DNA from: Saprospiraceae bacterium
GTDB lineage: Bacteria; Bacteroidota; Bacteroidia; Chitinophagales; Saprospiraceae
Assembly: GCA_016787415.1 (NCBI GenBank)
Contig: JAEUUT010000032.1
Coordinates: forward strand, 1-64,000
DNA: 64,000 nucleotides
Direction: 5' to 3'
Below, piece by piece: positions 6,416 to 63,406 of this stretch (positions are counted from its first letter, which is position 1; each line of letters opens with the position of its first letter). The notes beneath the pieces were generated by a model, which did not search any database, was not told where the DNA came from, and saw only the letters and a program-made list of their open reading frames with translations. The translations under genes and the position numbers were made by a program.

Positions 6416-8494
6416 ATGAACGTTCACTTTTCGCTGCGCGCCCTGACTTGCTGCGCAGCCCTTTCCATCTTCCTGTTTTCATGTGGGCAAAAACAGGAAG
6501 CAGCCACCACACAAGCCCCGGCAGCAGATACTGAAAAGGTTGTGCTGGATACCTTTGCCGACCTCCAGATTCTGCAATACGAACTGCCAGGTTGGGACAA
6601 ACTTGACCTGCGCCAGAAAACGTTTATTTACTACCTGTCAGAAGCCTCTTTGGCCGGTCGCGACATCATTTACGACCAGCACTGCAAAATGAACCTGACG
6701 GTGCGCAAATCGCTGGAAGCCATTTTCAATACCTACAAGGGCGATCGCACTTCGCCACAATGGAAAGCCTTCGAAACCTATGCCAAACGCGTATGGTTCA
6801 GCAACGGCATCCACCACCACTACAACGAAACCAAAATTCTGCCAGAGTTTCCGCAGCCCTATTTCAGTTCGCTGGTGCAACAATCAGATGCCAAAGCCTT
6901 CCCGCTTGCGCAGGGTGAAGACATGAATGCTTTCATGCTGAAATTGCTGCCCGTGATGTTCGACCCGACGGTTTTCCCAAAACGCACCAGCAAGGATGCC
7001 TCGGGAGACATTATCAAAGGTTCTTCGGTGAATTTTTATGAAAATGTGACAGCCGATCAGGTCGATGCTTTCTACAAGCCCATGAAACAGGCTGCCGGTG
7101 CAAACGCCCCTTCCTTCGGTCTCAACAGCAAACTGGTCAATGAAAACGGCACGCTCAAGGAGTATGTATGGCGGGCCGGAGCGGGTAATATGTATGGCGC
7201 TGCTATCGATAAAATTGTCGAAAACCTGCAAAAAGCACAGCCTTTTGCCGAAAATGACCAGCAGAAAAAAGCCATCGGCCTCCTGATCGAGTATTTTAAG
7301 AGTGGCGACCTGAAAAAATTCGATGAATACAACCTGGCCTGGATAAAAGACACAGAAAGCAAAATCGACTTCATCAACGGTTTTATCGAAGTGTACCACG
7401 ATCCGAAAGGATACAAAGCCGATTTTGAAGCCGTCGTGCAGTATAACGACCCTGAAGCCACTGAAAAAATGGCTATCGTGAGCAAAAACGCTCAGTATTT
7501 TGAAGACAACAGTACGATTCCCGCCGCTTACAAAAAAGAAAGCGTACAGGGGGTTTCCTATCGTGTGATCAATGTGGCCATGGAAGGTGGCGACTGCGCA
7601 CCCAGTACACCCATCGGCATCAACCTGCCCAATGCAGACTGGATACGCGAATTGGGCTCCAAATCTGTGAGCCTCAACAATATCGAAAATGCTTACGGTA
7701 AAGCCGGGGGCGCACTGGCTACTGCTGAATTTGCCAACGATGCCGAGGAAATTGAAAATGCCAAAAAATACGCCGAAGCCTGTGGCAAAATGCACACCGC
7801 CCTGCATGAGGTGATCGGGCATGCCAGCGGCAAACTGAAAAAAGGCGTGTCGGAACCCAATGTCACCCTCAAACACTACGCCAGCACACTGGAAGAGGCT
7901 CGCGCCGACCTGGTGGCCTTGTACTTCATGCCCGACCCAAAACTCGTGGAATGGGGCCTCCTGCCCGACGCCAATGCTTTCAAGGCCGAATACGACAATT
8001 ACATTCGCAACGGCCTGCTCATGCAATTGCGCCGCCTGCAACCCGGCCACGACATCGAGGAAGACCATATGCGCAACCGCCAACTAGTGGCCGCCTGGGC
8101 TTTTGAAAAAGGCAAAGCCGACAACGTCATCGCCAAAGAAATACGCAACGGCAAGATTTACTACGACATTCGTGATTATGCCAAACTGCGCACCCTCTTC
8201 GGGCAATTACTCTCCGAAATTCAGCGCATTAAGTCTGAAGGCGACTTCAGCGCCGCCAGCGCGCTCGTTGAAACCTATGGGGTGAAAACCGACGCCGAAA
8301 CCGGCAAACAGGTGAAAGCGCGCTACGCCAGCCTGCCCACCAAAGCCTATTCCGGATTCGTTCAGCCCAAACTCGTTGCCGTAAAAGACGCCAGTGGTAA
8401 TATCACTGACATCAAGGTGGAACGCGAACTGGATTTTGTGCAGCAAATGCTGCGATATGGGAAGGAGTACGGATTTTTACCCACAAATAATTAA
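6416..8494 (+). CDS. Dipeptidyl peptidase III (M49 family zinc peptidase), lipoprotein
   Basis: 692 residues, close to the 670-700 of Bacteroidota DPP III. It removes dipeptides from the N-terminus of short peptides. The zinc motif HEVIGH (residues 464-469) and the second motif EEARAD (about 493-498) match the M49 signatures HEXXGH and EEXR(K)AE(D). A lipoprotein signal (LSIFLFSCGQ) suggests an envelope location rather than the cytosol. The gene is bracketed by palindromes R1 and R2. The reading frame is intact. Peptide substrates cannot be told. Confidence 0.93.
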   Translation: MNVHFSLRALTCCAALSIFLFSCGQKQEAATTQAPAADTEKVVLDTFADLQILQYELPGWDKLDLRQKTFIYYLSEASLAGRDIIYDQHCKMNLTVRKSLEAIFNTYKGDRTSPQWKAFETYAKRVWFSNGIHHHYNETKILPEFPQPYFSSLVQQSDAKAFPLAQGEDMNAFMLKLLPVMFDPTVFPKRTSKDASGDIIKGSSVNFYENVTADQVDAFYKPMKQAAGANAPSFGLNSKLVNENGTLKEYVWRAGAGNMYGAAIDKIVENLQKAQPFAENDQQKKAIGLLIEYFKSGDLKKFDEYNLAWIKDTESKIDFINGFIEVYHDPKGYKADFEAVVQYNDPEATEKMAIVSKNAQYFEDNSTIPAAYKKESVQGVSYRVINVAMEGGDCAPSTPIGINLPNADWIRELGSKSVSLNNIENAYGKAGGALATAEFANDAEEIENAKKYAEACGKMHTALHEVIGHASGKLKKGVSEPNVTLKHYASTLEEARADLVALYFMPDPKLVEWGLLPDANAFKAEYDNYIRNGLLMQLRRLQPGHDIEEDHMRNRQLVAAWAFEKGKADNVIAKEIRNGKIYYDIRDYAKLRTLFGQLLSEIQRIKSEGDFSAASALVETYGVKTDAETGKQVKARYASLPTKAYSGFVQPKLVAVKDASGNITDIKVERELDFVQQMLRYGKEYGFLPTNN

Positions 8495-33977: not shown

Positions 33978-36116
33978 ATGTCGCTTTCCAGGGCAAAAGC
34001 CGCGCTCAAACAATATTTCGGGTATGATACCTTCCGGCCGCTTCAGGCCGATATTATCCGTACTGTGTATGAGGGTCGCGATGCGCTGGTGCTGATGCCC
34101 ACGGGCGGAGGCAAAAGCCTTTGTTATCAGGTGCCCGCTATTACCTTGGATGGAACAGCAGTCGTATTGAGCCCGCTTATTGCCCTGATGAAAGACCAGG
34201 TGGAAGGACTAAGTGCCAACGGCGTACCCGCCGCATTCCTCAACAGCACGCTCAATGCAGAACAGGTGCGGAATGTGGAAGATGCCTTGCTGGCAGGGTA
34301 TATCAAACTTTTGTATGTAAGCCCCGAAAAACTCGTGTCGCAGAGTTTTCAGCCTTTGTTGAAACGCCTGAAAATCAGCCTGTTCGCTATCGACGAAGCG
34401 CATTGCATTTCCGCCTGGGGGCACGATTTTCGGCCGGAATACACGCAGTTGCGTTTTTTAAAAGAACAATTTCCACAAGTACCCATCCTGGCACTTACGG
34501 CTACTGCCGACAAACTTACCCGCAAGGACATCGTTGCCCAACTGAACCTGCCCGATCCGCAGATTTTTATTTCCTCCTTCGATCGGCCCAATATCAGCCT
34601 GCAAGTGCGCCCCGGCCAACGCCGTTATGAACAAATCGTTGATTTTTTGAAACAACATCAGCGACAATCCGGCATTATTTACTGCCTGTCGAGGAGAAGT
34701 TGTGAGGAACTGTCGGCCAAACTCAACGCTAAAGGTTTCAAAACGGCCTTTTACCACGCCGATTTGCCGGCCCGGCAGCGCAACCAGGTGCAAGAGGATT
34801 TTATCAACGATAAAATACCGGTCATCTGCGCCACCATTGCCTTCGGAATGGGCATTGATAAAAGCAATGTGCGCTTTGTGATTCATTACAACCTGCCGCG
34901 CAATCTTGAATCCTATTATCAGGAAATCGGGCGGGCGGGTCGGGACGGGCTGCCCTCGTCGGCACTTTTGTTTTTCAGTTACAGCGATGTACAGACGTAC
35001 CGGCAAATGTTTGAAGAAGGCGATGGCGCCGACGAGCAAAAACAATTGAAAATTGCCAAACTGGAGCGCATGTTTCAGTTTGCAGAAGCGCCCGTATGTC
35101 GCCGACAAACCGTTTTGCAATATTTCGGTGAGTCGCACGACGGTAAGTGCGGGCATTGCGACGTGTGTGAAAACCCGCCGCGCCGTTTCGATGGCACTAC
35201 GGCAGCACAAAAAGCCTTGTCGGCGCTGCTGCGCACCGGAGAGAAAGTGGGTATGCAATTGCTGGTTGATATTTTACGTGGAAGCCGCCGACAGGAAGTG
35301 CTGGAGCCTGGTTTTGATAAAATAAAAACCTACGGCGCCGGCAAGGAATATTCGTACGACGTCTGGATGTTTCTGCTGTCGCAAATGCTGCACCAGGGAT
35401 TGCTCGAAATTGCATATGACGATTTCAGCCACTTGCGCGTAACCGAAACGGGCAAAAAGGTTTTATTTGAAAACAAACAGGTCGTACTGGCTATGCCACC
35501 TGAAAAAGCCGCCGCCAGGCCGCAAGCGCAACCTGTAGAAAAAAGCAAGGCGCAGTTGTTCCGCGACGAATTATTCGACGCGCTCGTTATGCTCCGGCGC
35601 AGTATCGCTCAAAAGCAAGGCATACCGCCTTACCTCGTCTTCAGCGATGCCACCTTGAGTGAAATGGCAGAGAAACGCCCGCTGGCAGATGCCGATATGA
35701 TGCGTATTTCTGGTGTAGGCGAACGAAAATTGCATTTATACGGTGATGCATTCATGGAGGTGGTACGAAAATTTGTTGTGGACAAATCTGGCGAAGGTGC
35801 CGCGCTCGGCGGCAGCAGTTACCTGCAAACATGGGAAATGTTCAAACAGGGCAATTCTGTAGAGGCCATAGCCGAAAAACGCCGCATGAGCCCGCTCACC
35901 ATTACTGGCCACCTGGCTATCATGTACGAAAAAGGCGAACTGGTGGACATTCGTTCGTGGGTGCGCTCCGATCAAATGGATCTGATTCAGGGCGCTTTGC
36001 CGTTGTTTGGCGAACCGTATGAGTTGAAAGAAATTTACGATCACTTTGAACACAAGTTTTCGTACACCCAGATCCAGTTTTCAATTGCTGATTTCCGCAA
36101 ACAGTGCAAAAAATAA
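33978..36116 (+). CDS. recQ: ATP-dependent DNA helicase RecQ
   Basis: 712 residues. It is a 3'-5' helicase in recombination and fork repair. Order: helicase core with Walker A (MPTGGGKSLCYQ, about 40-51), DEAH box (IDEAHCISAWGHDFRPEY, about 138), motif VI QEIGRAGRDG, RQC zinc cysteines (CRRQTVLQYFGE ... CGHCDVC), winged helix, and an HRDC domain (about 525-605, with LRRSIAQKQGIPPYLVFSDA). A C-terminal helix-turn-helix-like tail (from about 610) is usual in long RecQ forms. No frame damage. The array of small-RNA units starts directly after it on the opposite strand. Confidence 0.97.
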   Translation: MSLSRAKAALKQYFGYDTFRPLQADIIRTVYEGRDALVLMPTGGGKSLCYQVPAITLDGTAVVLSPLIALMKDQVEGLSANGVPAAFLNSTLNAEQVRNVEDALLAGYIKLLYVSPEKLVSQSFQPLLKRLKISLFAIDEAHCISAWGHDFRPEYTQLRFLKEQFPQVPILALTATADKLTRKDIVAQLNLPDPQIFISSFDRPNISLQVRPGQRRYEQIVDFLKQHQRQSGIIYCLSRRSCEELSAKLNAKGFKTAFYHADLPARQRNQVQEDFINDKIPVICATIAFGMGIDKSNVRFVIHYNLPRNLESYYQEIGRAGRDGLPSSALLFFSYSDVQTYRQMFEEGDGADEQKQLKIAKLERMFQFAEAPVCRRQTVLQYFGESHDGKCGHCDVCENPPRRFDGTTAAQKALSALLRTGEKVGMQLLVDILRGSRRQEVLEPGFDKIKTYGAGKEYSYDVWMFLLSQMLHQGLLEIAYDDFSHLRVTETGKKVLFENKQVVLAMPPEKAAARPQAQPVEKSKAQLFRDELFDALVMLRRSIAQKQGIPPYLVFSDATLSEMAEKRPLADADMMRISGVGERKLHLYGDAFMEVVRKFVVDKSGEGAALGGSSYLQTWEMFKQGNSVEAIAEKRRMSPLTITGHLAIMYEKGELVDIRSWVRSDQMDLIQGALPLFGEPYELKEIYDHFEHKFSYTQIQFSIADFRKQCKK

Positions 36117-36132
36117 AAGCACCATTTGGCAG

Positions 36133-36535
36133 GGGCAAAAAAAAACCCGGCGCTCGTTTGCGCCGGGTCGGTTTCCCGTATATAATCTCATGAAAAGTTT
36201 CGGAATCAGTGTATCAAAGTTCTCCGCTTTCTCTTGCCGCACCGCCGTTTGCTTTCTTTGATGATACAAAAGTGCAGCACATCATTCCACTGGCAAAGAA
36301 CAAAAAAGAAAATTTGTTGAGCAAGTGTTTTAAAGGGTAATATTTAAAAACCTTGCATTTGAAAGCAAAAACAAGATGTTTTCAGCGTTTTCACCCCCCT
36401 ATACTCCACGCCAGCGTTCATTTTGTTGAAAATTATCATATGAAAAGAGTGTGTTTTTTTTGAAAAAAAAATTTTTTTCGCCTGTTTTTCTATTTTGTTC
36501 AGGCTGCTTTTTTCATGAAGTTGCTTGAACGGATC
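36133..36535 (-). repeat. Repeat unit A of the small-RNA array
   Basis: About 400 bases repeated as unit B (36598-37005) with scattered differences. In transcription order (minus strand) a unit holds a conserved ATGAAAAAAGCAGCCTGA, a GCCTG/CAGGC stem with an A/T tract, the promoter, the RNA and the terminator. Only the RNA-promoter half is kept in unit C. Confidence 0.8.
36137..36261 (-). ncRNA. Predicted small RNA A
   Basis: On the minus strand, TTTG (36297-36294), an exact 19-base spacer and CACTTTTG (36274-36267) form a Bacteroidota-type promoter. The transcript, about 125 nt, ends in a perfect terminator: 8-bp GC stem CCCGGCGC/GCGCCGGG with a 6-base loop and nine Ts. The 5' half can fold with a stem TGT[ATC]ATCAAAG / CTTTGATACA, where the bracketed bases bulge. 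A frame runs through the unit, but A and B differ at four codons, all changing the residue, and the frame starts inside the promoter and crosses the terminator. I therefore treat it as non-coding. Confidence 0.65.
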
Positions 36536-36597
36536 TTACACAAAGCGTAGCGTGGATCTGTTTCAATGGAATATCCCAACATATTCCCACTGAGAAA

Positions 36598-37005
36598 AGG
36601 GCAAAAAAAAACCCGGCGCTCGTTTGCGCCGGGTCGGTTTCCCGTATATAATCTCATGAAAAGTTTCGGAATCTGTGTATCAAAGTTCTCCGCTTTCTTT
36701 CGCCGCACCGCCGTTCGCTTTCTTTGATGATACAAAAGTGCAGCACATCATTCCACTGCCAAAGAACAAAAAAGAAAATTTGTTGAGCGGTTTTTTTGCA
36801 GCCAATATTCAAAATCTCGCATTTAGAAACAAAAAAAAGAGTTTTTTAACGTTTTCACGCTCATAGATTTTGCGCCAACATCCACTTTGTTGAAAATTAA
36901 TTCGTGAAAACAGGGTTTCTTTTTCGAAAAAAAAATTTTTCGCCTGCTTTTCTATTTTGCTCAGGCTGCTTTTTTCATATAGTTGCTCGAACGGGTTTTG
37001 TCTTT
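36598..37005 (-). repeat. Repeat unit B of the small-RNA array
   Basis: Second full-length unit, about 468 bases after unit A. Both the RNA and the upstream flank with the five-codon ATGAAAAAAGCAGCCTGA are kept. Confidence 0.8.
36603..36727 (-). ncRNA. Predicted small RNA B
   Basis: Same layout as RNA A: -33 TTTG (36763-36760), 19-base spacer, CACTTTTG (36740-36733), start near 36727 and terminator stem at 36612-36633 followed by nine Ts. It differs from A at only a few bases, mostly in the 5' hairpin loop. Confidence 0.65.
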
Positions 37006-37187
37006 AGACATTTTCTGCCTGCTCCAGAACGAGACAGGAAAACATTTTTTAAAGCCTAAAAGCATCTTCTACCTGCACTACGCTTTGTGTCCTCGGTGAA
37101 AACCTTTGTGTTTAAAATATTTTACCTCTATGAACACGGCGGGTAATGTGGATATCCTGCTATGGAATATCCCCCCCAAAAAAAGGC

Positions 37188-37312
37188 AAAAAAAAACCCG
37201 GCGCTCGTTTGCGCCGGGTCGGTTTCCCGTATATAATCTCATGAAAAGTTTCGGAATCAGTGTGTCAACAATTACCGCTTTCTCAAATATCGCTGCCGCT
37301 TTCTTTTATTGA
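37188..37312 (-). ncRNA. Predicted small RNA C, diverged 5' half
   Basis: -33 TTTG (37348-37345), a 19-base spacer and CACTTTTG (37325-37318) are kept, although the spacer sequence itself has changed. The 3' half, including the terminator stem (37197-37218), matches A. The 5' half has changed but still pairs: TGT[ACT]GTCAA / TTGACACA, with an A-U to G-C exchange relative to A and B. Confidence 0.62.
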
Positions 37313-37325
37313 CAGTACAAAAGTG

Positions 37326-37743
37326 CAAACATTTCTACCATATGCAAAGAACACAAAACTGAATTTGTTGATTTGTTATTCTTTGTATATCGCACATTCA
37401 AATAGCATGTTTTTTTAAAATATGATGAAAAACGCATGTATTTGGGTAAATTAAAGCCATATACATATGCGCGTATCTATCCATTTGTTGATTTTTTTAA
37501 TATAAATTTTTTTTTATTTTTTTTCATAATTTTTTGCAAACGTATAATCCGCAAATCTAAAAGTACACTTTTTTTCGCGCCCTGATTGATCAATAGGCGA
37601 AAACACAACCGCCAAGATCAAAGCCCTGAACAGAATCTAAAGCCTTGATCTTTAATAATATTTTAAAAAAACAATAAGGACCGTTTAATTGGATTTAAAA
37701 CGCCAAGGGTCTTGACCAGCATGCGGGTAAATTCCAAATCGAA
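37326..37743. other. AT-rich non-coding stretch before the prophage
   Basis: About 420 bases with long A/T runs (around 37490-37530) and no credible gene. The left end of the prophage is expected somewhere between recQ and here. No attachment repeat or TG..CA end could be recognised. Confidence 0.5.
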
Positions 37744-63307: not shown

Positions 63308-63336
63308 TCCGAAGTTATTTTAAAAGTGAATTTTTG

Positions 63337-63406
63337 AAGCACATCCGGGACTCGAACCCAGTTCCTCCGGCTGTGAAGCCGGCGCATGCCTGTCTGCCAA
63401 TGTGCT
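63337..63406 (-). tRNA. tRNA-like element with abnormal anticodon loop
   Basis: 70 bases: acceptor stem AGCACAT/ATGTGCT, T8, D-arm with A14 and GG, T-arm CTGGG-TTCGAGT-CCCGG, variable loop of five. The anticodon stem CCGGC/GCCGG leaves a six-base loop TTCACA (eight if only four pairs form), so the anticodon reads CAC (Val) or TCA, depending on the fold. CCA is not encoded. Confidence 0.65.

Follow-up and report, generated by a model that had tools for sequence, protein, structure and literature searches.

A predicted multicopy small-RNA family of one Saprospiraceae genus, built on an older family-wide core-hairpin module

The PrrF RNAs are duplicated neighbouring sRNAs of similar size class with a GC-rich terminator, and the several copies of LhrC1-5 share conserved pairing motifs. 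LhrC1-5 of Listeria monocytogenes is a multicopy sRNA family related to the cell envelope (PMC4132741). The FopS RNAs of Bacteroides thetaiotaomicron form a family of paralogous sRNAs that is encoded in multiple copies behind canonical Bacteroidota promoters and represses susC mRNAs by pairing at the start codon. They are approximately 65-70 nt long, carry the seed at the 5' end and bind the RRM-1 protein RbpB (PMC11697453). Little is known of post-transcriptional control among Bacteroidota other than Bacteroides, and a literature search returned no paper that combined Saprospiraceae with small RNA and sRNA.

The window analysed here is a stretch of 64,000 nt from a Saprospiraceae bacterium. 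Three tandem units, designated A, B and C, lie next to recQ; the parts of the locus are as follows.

36137..36320, minus strand: unit A, aligned from the sequence (134.3 bits with model R1); boxes TCAACAAA at 36320-36313, TTTG (-33) at 36297-36294 and CACTTTTG (-7) at 36274-36267; promoter-based predicted 5' end at about 36261 and transcript end at about 36137
36603..36786, minus strand: unit B (135.9 bits with R1); boxes TCAACAAA at 36786-36779, TTTG at 36763-36760 and CACTTTTG at 36740-36733; predicted 5' end at about 36727
37188..37371, minus strand: unit C (131.2 bits with R1), with a diverged 5' half; boxes TCAACAAA at 37371-37364, TTTG at 37348-37345 and CACTTTTG at 37325-37318; predicted 5' end at about 37312
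36213..36262, minus strand: P1, the first stem of unit A, formed by ATCAAAG (36262-36256) and CTTTGAT (36219-36213)
36170..36201 in A, 36636-36667 in B and 37221-37252 in C, minus strand: invariant unpaired core GAAACTTTTCATGAGATTATATACGGGAAACC
36137..36168 in A, 36603-36634 in B and 37188-37219 in C, minus strand: hairpin P2 with loop AAACGA, followed by nine Ts
33978..36116, plus strand: recQ (Pfam RQC, HRDC and RecQ_Zn_bind), the convergent neighbour of the array

Direct reading and alignment confirmed the architecture given in the preliminary description, in which each unit consists of TTTG, exactly 19 bases, CACTTTTG, a predicted transcript of about 125 nt and a GC hairpin with nine Ts; the 5' ends of all three are predictions from promoter positions. 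P1 closes an unpaired, purine-rich loop in A, and B and C have an equivalent. The P2 loop reads GCAAACGAGC, and the terminators of A, B and C are identical (ACCCGGCGC-AAACGA-GCGCCGGGT plus nine Ts). The 25-mer TTTTCATGAGATTATATACGGGAAA occurs three times in the window versus not once in 100 shuffles. Exact TTTG at a spacing of 19 was found in 35 of 83 units, the rest having imperfect boxes or another spacing, and the recQ family adjoins the units in 17 loci of the neighbour table.

In organisation the family resembles FopS. Both belong to Bacteroidota and comprise many paralogous intergenic sRNAs with canonical -33/-7 promoters, several of them per genome, and the likeness extends to a conserved unpaired seed, one 3'-UTR-derived member, a phage homologue and pairing of the seed at start codons of exported-protein mRNAs, which for the Saprospiraceae family is a prediction. 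The Saprospiraceae RNA is longer, with a predicted length of about 125 nt compared to about 65-70 nt in FopS; its core lies in the 3' half, where FopS has a 5' seed, and tandem arrays dominate. LhrC1-5 is likewise multicopy with conserved pairing motifs, but belongs to an unrelated phylum and gave no Rfam sequence match. PrrF (RF00444) reached 21.7 bits over the whole unit against a gathering score of 90 (E 0.75), and the unit is not a member of that family.

To judge whether the units encode RNA, base pairing was assessed across 48 of them. In the two helices, 98.2% of cells were paired, compared to 30-48% in slid controls, and nine pairs had changes on both sides; the covariation score of 0.476 exceeded that of shuffles (0.182) and of slid controls (no higher than 0.113). 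P1 (seven pairs) was paired in 96.1% of cells with three pairs changed on both sides, and P2 (ten pairs) in 99.6% of cells with six pairs so changed. The stretch between the helices is unpaired and almost invariant, with TCATGAGA in 70 of 70 units and CTTTTCATGAGATT in 66 of 70. The exchange of an A-U for a G-C pair reported earlier in the first stem (ATCAAAG/CTTTGAT in A and B, GTCAA/TTGAC in C) was correct, and the related copies with compensatory changes that had been expected were recovered by DNA and covariance-model searches in nearly every genome of the genus, both helices covarying far above controls. The array had also been called undescribed, and an Rfam 15 scan agreed in that nothing in the window matched at gathering score; a permissive scan returned chance-level scores only. 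A 6S analogue was considered and rejected: a search for 6S RNA (RF00013) gave no match in the window or in 61 genomes of the order, and its control was positive in 4 of 14 well-known genomes, so that its sensitivity in this phylum is unproven. The units very probably constitute an RNA gene family, and the initial reading of them as small-RNA genes is supported, in the form of paralogous sRNA genes.

The units are widespread within the genus. A DNA search of 61 genomes recovered them in 36 of 37 genus members, typically with 2-7 matches per genome; the 24 genomes from other families had none. A core-containing query matched 41 of 42 genus genomes, one of them solely through the tRNA part of the query; the single non-matching genome had shown a partial copy in the earlier DNA search, and the family is present in about 40 of the 42. 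With the full covariance model, all nine genus members sampled gave a match and the 290 other genomes from the order gave none, and an exact pattern retrieved 60 stretches from a named genome collection, nearly all of them Saprospiraceae-type MAGs. Contig JAKLJF010000065.1 (13,831 bases; L140, L253), labelled Thermoanaerobaculia, also carries the sRNA. This NCBI label is probably wrong, because genus member G329 also has a contig of 13,831 bases.

The two halves of the units differ in how they vary. Hairpins were identical in 73% of paralogous pairs within genomes, compared to 5% of pairs between genomes. Mean identity was 0.97 within and 0.87 between genomes for the 3' halves, and 0.72 within and 0.62 between for the 5' halves, all of these being statistics that ignore the relatedness of the genomes. 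The likeness within genomes includes copies on separate contigs (for example in G018, G020, G021, G024, G026 and G027). Because hairpins are mostly identical within genomes and rarely between them, these comparisons suggest concerted evolution of the hairpins and 3' halves; the identity pattern would follow either from gene conversion or from selection that the 3' halves have in common.

The array had been described as consisting of three genes. Units A, B and C are real, but there are more copies: a fourth full copy, D, is 97% identical to A and lies on the same strand at contig positions 73499-73682. A Mu-like prophage that split the array has placed it outside the window. With a divergent fifth copy on contig C43, the genome holds four full copies and one divergent one. 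The prophage between C and D extends from about position 37542 of the window to about position 73490 of the contig (L026), and encodes a Mu-type portal protein (Portal_Mu) and a protein with a weak match to rve, the transposase/integrase core. Inside it, ARAGORN reports a tRNA whose type is undefined and whose anticodon loop is abnormal (window 63336-63406, minus strand). The array is unbroken in G016, where recQ and a zinc-carboxypeptidase gene flank four successive units. The same array in G034 is occupied by a related prophage (L057, L058) at another spacer and in the opposite orientation, which suggests that the insertions in the two genomes were independent.

Judged by the contexts in which its sequence recurs, the invariant unpaired core (TTTTCATGAGATTATA...) together with the hairpin with loop GCAAANGAGC is a portable module. 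In G005 (L104:5390-5959), four consecutive core-hairpin modules share a single promoter. Their internal hairpins have no T-run, and some of the modules are preceded by short inverted repeats, read by eye. The C43 copy (L243:12681-12826, corresponding to G000:C43:36680-36825) has a tRNA-like sequence directly before the core and hairpin. That sequence scores 46.7 bits with the Rfam tRNA model (threshold 29), has no recognisable anticodon and is assigned no amino acid by ARAGORN. The tRNA-core fusion was seen in no other genus genome among the 42 searched. Phage-type genes, such as one for an HNH endonuclease, lie near the C43 copy.

Five IMG/VR contigs (L256, L257, L281, L291 and L314) carry the module at 46-70 bits without P1, which is absent or replaced in both the phage copies and the C43 copy. 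Two of the viral copies lie directly behind promoter-like boxes, one of these adjoining a terminase gene; two overlap the 3' end of an open frame, and one lies behind a tRNA-Met gene. Plasmids gave no module match, and INPHARED phages gave a single chance-level match of 21 bases. Within the family, a model of the 3' part matched 84 of 298 Saprospiraceae genomes and 43 of 112 genera at E <=0.01, where about three were expected, the E-values being rough. What these matches have in common is TTCATGRGATTATRATTTGTT followed by a GC hairpin; it is often repeated in tandem and sometimes stands behind the same kind of promoter. Allowing one mismatch, the family-wide 21-mer had three single matches outside the family in 395 genomes, and the short core is Saprospiraceae-wide and essentially confined to the family. 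An sRNA-like promoter is also present at genes encoding large secreted DUF7619/Por_Secre_tail proteins (L079:4722-4795 and 7762-7823; also L080, L084 and L094), two of which end in a weak module; downstream of DUF7619 genes the family-wide module is found in other genera as well. It is possible, though fairly unlikely, that a single RNA module is in use across the Saprospiraceae, in the sRNA genes of the hosts, in the polycistronic array and the tRNA-like fusion, at mRNA 3' ends and in phages, and that the minimal copies of the phages plug into the control that the host exerts post-transcriptionally on exported proteins.

Target pairing was assessed in 800 kb of the relative G007, with simple gene calls and with a simple signal-peptide rule in place of SignalP. 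Core duplexes of <= -12 kcal/mol formed at 35 of 162 starts of signal-peptide-like genes, compared to 11.2 +/- 4.4 for shuffled cores, and none of 60 shuffled cores reached 35. There was no excess at other starts, inside genes or with the 5' domain. The shorter family-wide core paired at 26 signal-peptide-like starts, compared to 8.1 for shuffles, and the AUG and codons 2-3 were at the centre of the pairing. The whole core was rejected as the source of this signal, which the octamer TTTTCATG carries alone: cores that kept the octamer with the rest randomised scored as well, and the conservation of the rest of the core is therefore left unaccounted for. Anti-start pairing with messages for exported proteins is, as predicted here, supported but not specific. 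Away from the sRNA loci, matches to the full complement ATCTCATGAAAAG were dispersed, and no target recurred convincingly among them. A cis 'anticore' CATAATCCCATAAA beside some family-wide copies looked complementary by eye and was rejected; its duplex scores fell within shuffled controls, and it is also scarce in whole genomes. It had been proposed that such paralogues act on related targets or answer different signals. The invariance of the core makes action on related targets plausible; nothing found here supports different signals.

We propose that the units, as paralogues, encode a regulatory sRNA that acts in trans and belongs to a single Saprospiraceae genus, and that each is probably transcribed from a separate -33/-7 promoter. 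The core (CTTTTCATGAG...ACGGGAAA) would pair around the start codon of mRNAs that begin AUGAAAA and code for exported or secreted proteins, and would thereby block translation initiation, while hairpin P2 would end and protect the transcript. The variable, purine-rich P1 domain may be dispensable in some contexts; phages and a prophage-like region carry the core plus hairpin without it. Several copies would raise dosage, with their 3' halves presumably kept alike by concerted evolution. Translational repression at start codons, for which FopS is a precedent within the phylum, is the best, though unproven, mechanism, and we give it slightly less than an even chance on this analysis. The overlap of some copies with 3' ends of open frames counts against this proposal, as such copies are not free sRNAs.

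It is scarcely credible that the units encode a small peptide. An open frame is present in A and B, but it is uninterrupted in no more than 11 of 70 units and is displaced by indels of 1 and 2 nt, and indels in the core and hairpin alter the peptide wholly while base pairing is kept; all codon changes from A to B are non-synonymous, as had been claimed in arguing against a peptide. A DNA element, such as a mobile element or a phage attachment or recombination site, would agree with the tandem repeats, their homogenised 3' halves and the prophages inside the array in two genomes. It is very improbable given the compensatory changes in two helices, the conserved promoter boxes, the oriented T-runs and the stable position beside recQ in 17 loci; moreover, the prophage is Mu-like with an rve-type transposase and sits in spacers, not in units. 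Because the helices compensate, a peptide is disfavoured and Rfam holds no match, the units are best described as a new genus-level sRNA family, as predicted from sequence, with an older family-wide module.

The module might instead be mainly a 3'-end element, a terminator with conserved upstream sequence that aids termination or protection, the tandem units then being short transcripts with no role in trans. Family-wide relatives are often downstream of genes, two viral copies overlap an open-frame 3' end, and all copies have the GC hairpin, usually with a T-run. We consider this improbable: a genome has only about 2 to 12 copies, too few for a general terminator, and in the genus the units also possess individual promoters and a second helix, both of them conserved. 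A rather unlikely reading is that core and hairpin are a protein-binding module, by which the RNA sequesters or presents an RNA-binding protein and copies and repeats set the capacity in a sponge-like manner. This would account for the invariance of the whole core beyond the anti-start octamer, the conservation of loop GCAAANGAGC where a terminator loop need not be conserved, the G005 transcript with four modules and internal hairpins without T-run, and the occurrence of the module with differing 5' parts. It sits poorly with start-region complementarity that is specific to signal-peptide-like genes and with the distribution of RRM-1 proteins (PF00076), which were not found in this genome or in most sampled genus members (11 of 16 genomes lack one, although these are drafts and absence is not absolute). 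For that reason, dependence on RbpB is also unlikely.

As a family of regulatory sRNA genes, the units would offer a genus-wide, covariation-supported sRNA with an exact and testable core. They provide a natural comparison with FopS, probably without RbpB; phages carry minimal versions, and the dispersed sRNA genes are a candidate for concerted evolution that is confined to their 3' halves.
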